From: Thermodesulfovibrio yellowstonii DSM 11347
GTDB lineage: Bacteria > Nitrospirota > Thermodesulfovibrionia > Thermodesulfovibrionales > Thermodesulfovibrionaceae
Reading direction: 5' to 3'
Length of the DNA: 64,000 bases
NCBI RefSeq assembly: GCF_000020985.1
Contig: NC_011296.1
Location: forward strand, 310,001 to 374,000
Shown here: positions 38,473-39,603 of the stretch, piece by piece
Position numbering within the stretch: the stretch's first letter is position 1
Layout: each line of letters opens with the position of its first letter
Notes under the pieces: generated by a model
Databases searched by the model: none
What the model was told of the DNA's origin: nothing
Seen by the model: only the letters and a program-made list of their open reading frames with translations
Translations under genes and position numbers: made by a program

Positions 38473-39495
38473 TCAAGCTAAAATAATCTTACCTGAGCTT
38501 TTTTCAATAATTTCCCCTATGATAGCTGATTGAATTCCAGAGGAGTTTAGTCTTGAAATCAGAGTATCTGTTCTATCTGAAGGGACAGAAATAAGAAGTC
38601 CACCAGAGGTTTGAGGGTCTGATAATATATCAAGTGTTATGGGGTCTGTGTTCCCTATTTCAACTAATTTTGAACAATAGTTTACATTTCGTCTTCCGCC
38701 TGCTGGAACAATACCCATTGAAGCAAATTCATAAACGCGTGGAAGCAATGGAACTTTATTTTTCCATAATTTTATTGTTACCTTGCTTGATTTTGCAAGT
38801 TCAAGAGCATGCCCTAAAAGTCCAAATCCTGTAATATCAGTACAGGCATTTACCCCAATATTCATCATAACTTCTGATGCTGTTTTATTAAGTAAAGCCA
38901 TTGTTTGAGTAAGAATTTTTGCAGTATCATGGTCAAGAAGTTTTCCCTTAAGAGCTGTTGACAGTATTCCTGTGCCTATAGGCTTTGTTAAAATAAGAAC
39001 ATCTCCTGTTTTTGCACCTTTATTTGTAACAAATCTGTCTGGATGGACAATTCCTGTAGCTGCGATTCCATATTTTATCTCAGGGTCATCAATGCTGTGT
39101 CCACCTATCATTAAAGCTTCTGCTTCACTTAGTTTATCTGCACCACCTTTTAAAATATCTCTTAGAATTGATTTATCCATCTCATTTATCGGAAAACAAA
39201 CAATATTAAGGGCTAAAATAGGCTTTGCACCAACTGCGTATATATCACTCAATGCATTTGCAACTGCAATCTGTCCGAAATCGTAAGGATTGTCAACAAT
39301 AGGAGTAAAAAAATCAACACTTTGCACAACTGCAAGGTCTTCTTTTAAACGATAAATCCCTGCATCAGACCAATCTTCAGAGCCGACAAGAAGATTTGGG
39401 TCCGTTGGTAGAGAAAGATATTTTAATATTTCTTCAAGGTCCCCAGGACCGATCTTTGCTGCTCAGCCAGCAGCCTTAACTTTTTCTGTAAGCAC
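38473..39495 (-). CDS. selD: Selenide, water dikinase (SelD), selenoprotein with in-frame UGA
   Basis: Makes selenophosphate from selenide and ATP, the selenium donor for Sec-tRNA. The protein of 340 residues starts at GTG 39495 (AAAGGAG upstream). Its active site reads AAG-U-AAKIGPGDL, where codon 11 (39465-39463) is TGA in the place of the catalytic Cys/Sec, followed three residues later by the conserved Lys. The frame continues through IGGHSIDDPEIKYG and DITGFGLLGHALE, both typical of SelD. A hairpin follows the UGA. Ordinary gene callers would start it late at Met 57 (39327) and lose the active site. Confidence 0.93.
39438..39450 (-). promoter_or_regulatory. SECIS-like hairpin after the selD UGA
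   Basis: On the gene strand GGTCC and GGACC pair around a TGG loop. The loop lies 17 bases after the UGA and has G as its second base, within the spacing and loop rules known for bacterial SECIS elements. The stem is only five pairs, so SelB recognition is inferred. Confidence 0.5.
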
Positions 39496-39603
39496 CTATT
39501 TAACTCCTTTTGCTTATTAACTTTTCAATTTTACCATAATTAAACTAATTTGCCTATACTCCTGAATTTGCCATTTAATGTTCTTATTTGATAACATTAA
39601 AAA

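Follow-up and report, generated by a model that had tools for sequence, protein, structure and literature searches.

A predicted selenocysteine-containing selenophosphate synthetase in Thermodesulfovibrio yellowstonii and a candidate selenocysteine at the N-terminal motif of an MvhA-type hydrogenase

The selD gene of Thermodesulfovibrio yellowstonii DSM 11347 almost certainly encodes a selenocysteine (Sec)-containing selenide, water dikinase (selenophosphate synthetase), in which a UGA at codon 11 would be decoded as Sec. The gene lies within the window, the whole 64,000-nucleotide stretch analyzed here, which corresponds to G000:C1:310001-374000 of the complete genome of 2,003,803 bases. The coding sequence is located on the minus strand (39495..38473) and extends from a GTG start at 39495-39493 to a TGA stop at 38475-38473, giving 340 residues when the in-frame UGA at 39463..39465 is counted as Sec. 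A ribosome-binding site, AGGAG (39504..39508, minus strand), is separated from the GTG by 8 nt. With TGA translated as U, the frame begins VLTEKVKAAG-U-AAKIGPGDLEEILK... and contains this single internal TGA. A plus-strand reading of 38473-39495 was also considered and rejected, as it yields no frame.

The original prediction that the GTG start, the ribosome-binding site and read-through of codon 11 together restore a complete SelD N terminus is borne out by the profile scores. The full frame scores 383.1 bits against the NCBIfam SelD equivalog TIGR00476 (cut-off 125) and 352.8 bits against PRK00943 (cut-off 299), and the restored N terminus contributes 60 bits over the 323 bits obtained for the product truncated at codon 57. 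The best matches of known structure identified with phmmer are 2yye from Aquifex aeolicus (2.8e-77) and 3u0o, the cysteine-containing SelD of E. coli (1.8e-75), to which the protein is homologous along its whole length. Codon 11 aligns opposite the N-terminal-loop Cys of both structures, as expected if the TGA marks the catalytic Cys/Sec position, so the residue that is Cys in E. coli is UGA in this gene. The next Lys, three residues further on, is conserved as had been proposed; both U11 and K14 are invariant across 12 aligned SelDs, and the resulting U-A-A-K is an exact match to UxxK, the Sec motif tabulated for SelD in a 2026 review (PMC13188914). Matches to SelD in phages and plasmids were all below 60% identity and added nothing.

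Is the UGA a genuine sense codon, or does it terminate translation? Standard ORF calling under translation table 11 favors the latter, returning a 284-residue ORF that begins at the GTG of codon 57 and still reaches 323 bits to SelD, and a true stop or pseudogene lesion followed by a shortened SelD could be read from this call. Such a product would lose the catalytic loop and with it both the catalytic residue and Lys14. Moreover, the frame upstream of the UGA is conserved: across 12 same-genus genomes, pN/pS is 0.03 for codons 2-10, compared with values of 0.26 over codons 12-56 and 0.16 over codons 57-200. Purifying selection on codons 2-10 is strong, which would not be expected of a dead or untranslated leader. 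The UGA itself is also shared widely. In an order sample of 61 genomes, own genome included, exactly one in-frame TGA is present in all 54 SelD matches over the cut-off, and it falls at the identical residue in each of the 30 whose position was read. For these reasons, a true stop at codon 11 is regarded as extremely improbable. Among the 91 SelD matches listed for the phylum sample, 84 carry one TGA (84/90 of those including the N terminus), six extend to the N terminus and have no TGA, and one is missing that end. Five genomes of this sample (G083, G065, G064, G180 and G161) have two SelD genes each, with one in-frame UGA per gene, reflecting either duplication of a Sec-containing SelD or mixed bins.

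If the codon is translated, a further question is which amino acid is inserted. UGA has been recoded to Trp in other bacteria, and reading as Trp, or as Cys by a suppressor, either genome-wide or through leaky readthrough, could in principle preserve the frame. However, UGA terminates normal genes in this organism, selD included, and the recoded UGAs that were found coincide with positions occupied by Cys or Sec in established selenoprotein families; in one of these, the hydrogenase described below, some same-genus genes have TGT where others have UGA. The Sec machinery is also complete. The genome contains selA (617 bits), selB (385 bits) and a tRNA-Sec with anticodon UCA (72.6 bits), in agreement with the original prediction that the organism must decode Sec; no tRNA genes were found inside the 64-kb window. 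The SelD family search detected no second, intact Cys SelD, and the two other SelD-family matches are weak paralogues (best 64.5 bits against the cut-off of 125), so neither absence of the machinery nor an intact Cys-containing SelD elsewhere speaks against the assignment. Taken together, a non-Sec reading is considered very unlikely, and decoding of codon 11 as Sec is strongly preferred.

In the order sample, a tRNA-Sec was found in 55 of the 61 genomes. The nearly complete genome G035 has neither a SelD over the cut-off nor a tRNA-Sec. Of five genomes listed with no tRNA-Sec hit, three (G046, G050 and G059) have a UGA-containing SelD and gave no hit under stricter filters; since searches of more than 40 genomes applied these filters and scored only part of the candidates, such misses are expected. 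G054 (98% complete) presents the opposite combination, a tRNA-Sec and no SelD over the cut-off, which reflects either a gap in the assembly or genuine loss.

The small hairpin proposed to lie 12 bases after the UGA was recovered in the minimum-energy structure as GGUCC-UGG-GGACC (39438..39450, minus strand). Its five-pair stem begins 12 nt 3' of the UGA and is capped by an apical loop, UGG, whose first two bases are U and G. The stem retains all five pairs in 11 of the 12 copies from the genus; in copies from outside it, A.C is frequent at the outermost pair. Among 63 four-fold codons with a kept amino acid in the 12 same-genus genomes, the only one that never varies is the GGT of codon 16, which forms the 5' base of the stem. 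Neither the fold energy compared with shuffled sequence (z -0.42, not significant) nor covariation (not above shuffles) distinguishes the element, and it is from its position and the silent-site constraint, rather than covariation, that we predict it to be the probable bacterial SECIS of selD.

The model for selD expression that follows from these features begins with translation initiating at the GTG at 39495. The short hairpin just 3' of the UGA would direct SelB, which together with Sec-tRNA-Sec(UCA) would insert Sec at codon 11, placing it in the flexible N-terminal loop that holds the catalytic Cys in E. coli SelD. The resulting enzyme would supply selenophosphate to SelA, and the synthesis of SelD would thus depend on the product of SelD itself. 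No match to selU/ybbB (2-selenouridine) was found in the genome, so there is no obvious sign that selenophosphate is also used here to make selenouridine. In all of these respects the protein is an ordinary Sec-containing SelD, of a kind long known in bacteria and ranking among the two most common selenoproteins there (PMC1794560). It resembles the family (TIGR00476) and the Aquifex aeolicus enzyme (2yye/2zod) in its fold over the full length, in the Sec/Cys position, in the Lys at +3 and in the UGA with its downstream hairpin; no substantial difference from the Aquifex aeolicus type was seen, the features to record here being the GTG start and the short three-base apical loop. Literature searches on Thermodesulfovibrio selenoproteins, covering open-access papers, returned nothing relevant. 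The selD result is therefore a useful annotation and nothing new: standard calling truncates the N terminus of selD, Sec is predicted to be decoded, and selenophosphate synthesis would be dependent on Sec.

The expectation that other genes carry UGA codons hidden from standard calls was also realized, in a formate dehydrogenase and a hydrogenase that both lie outside the window; inside it, no other TGA joins exceeded the set thresholds. The selenoprotein list for the genome was built from family searches and is a lower bound. The formate dehydrogenase alpha subunit (plus strand; G000:C1 match 859768-861216, with the TGA at 1768 of L046) scores 1442 bits to TIGR01553 and contains one in-frame TGA in the context ...EHQARIUHSPTV..., followed by a hairpin (z -1.71). 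Its UHSP fits the UHxP motif given in the 2026 review (PMC13188914), and by sequence it is an ordinary Sec formate dehydrogenase. The genome encodes three FlpD/MvhD homologues, with an internal stop in none.

The second of these genes encodes an MvhA-type [NiFe] hydrogenase large subunit (G000:C1:1323639-1325105, minus strand; L055:1501-2967:-), and here the UGA occupies an unexpected position. In the translated context ...RTVSTICGVURGVHYTAS..., U replaces the second Cys of the N-terminal CGxC motif, and the C-terminal motif, DLCFAC, is intact. The second CGxC Cys is Cys84 in the numbering of D. vulgaris Miyazaki F, one of the two cysteines that bridge Ni and Fe (PMC12117559), whereas the known Sec of hydrogenases corresponds to Cys530 of the [NiFe] enzymes (PMC7324405). 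Near-identical relatives (94-96%) come from Thermodesulfovibrio sp. genomes. Among the 13 same-genus orthologues, own included, the codon is TGA in ten and TGT in three, and G015 has a more distant second copy that likewise carries TGA. The sequence ACAGCCTCAGTGAAGGCTG is invariant in the ten same-genus TGA genes and absent as such from the three TGT genes. From +6 to +11, all five codons of at least four-fold degeneracy are invariant, compared with 25/212 gene-wide.

A scan of named genomes identified TGA at the CGxC codon in 10 of 79 motif-readable hydrogenase loci. Four of these belong to the Thermodesulfovibrio group; the other six are from Dehalococcoidales, Krumholzibacteria, Latescibacteria, UBP1 and Acidobacteria. 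A hairpin follows at equal distance after the TGA in all 17 distinct TGA contexts. The mean fold of the TGA contexts is -10.0 kcal/mol versus -6.8 kcal/mol for 79 Cys contexts, values uncorrected for relatedness and base composition, and a comparable hairpin is folded by several of the Cys genes as well. With regard to the six loci with a UGA at the CGxC codon outside the Thermodesulfovibrio group (L103, L104, L122, L126, L140 and L142), five share a near-identical hairpin, GGCCTCGGGTAAGGCC, and L103 differs in the loop. This likeness across phyla might reflect horizontal transfer.

We hypothesize that this MvhA-type large subunit is probably a selenoprotein that carries Sec in place of the second N-terminal CGxC Cys, where its selenolate would bridge Ni and Fe, and that it represents a second type of [NiFeSe] site, independent of the known one, in several bacterial phyla, one that has been missed because the UGA truncates the gene call. 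The [NiFeSe] hydrogenases and the VhuU/MvhA proteins with a C-terminal UxxC belong to the same large-subunit family and likewise have Sec in place of one of the Cys residues that ligate the Ni-Fe site. In the known [NiFeSe] enzymes, however, Sec occupies the first Cys position of the C-terminal motif and is a terminal ligand, as is Cys530 of [NiFe] enzymes, whereas the Sec predicted in this MvhA would take the second Cys position of the N-terminal CGxC and act as a bridging ligand. In the 2026 review, MvhA/VhuA/VhuU and FrhA are given with UxxC only (PMC13188914), and no description of an N-terminal Sec hydrogenase was found among open-access papers, which is weak evidence of novelty. The hydrogenase lead is worth a study of its own. 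If Sec is inserted in MvhA, selenium would bridge Ni and Fe in this enzyme, in contrast to the described [NiFeSe] enzymes in which it is a terminal Ni ligand, and the pair would provide a natural test of the role of selenium at each ligand position, for example in oxygen tolerance and catalytic bias.
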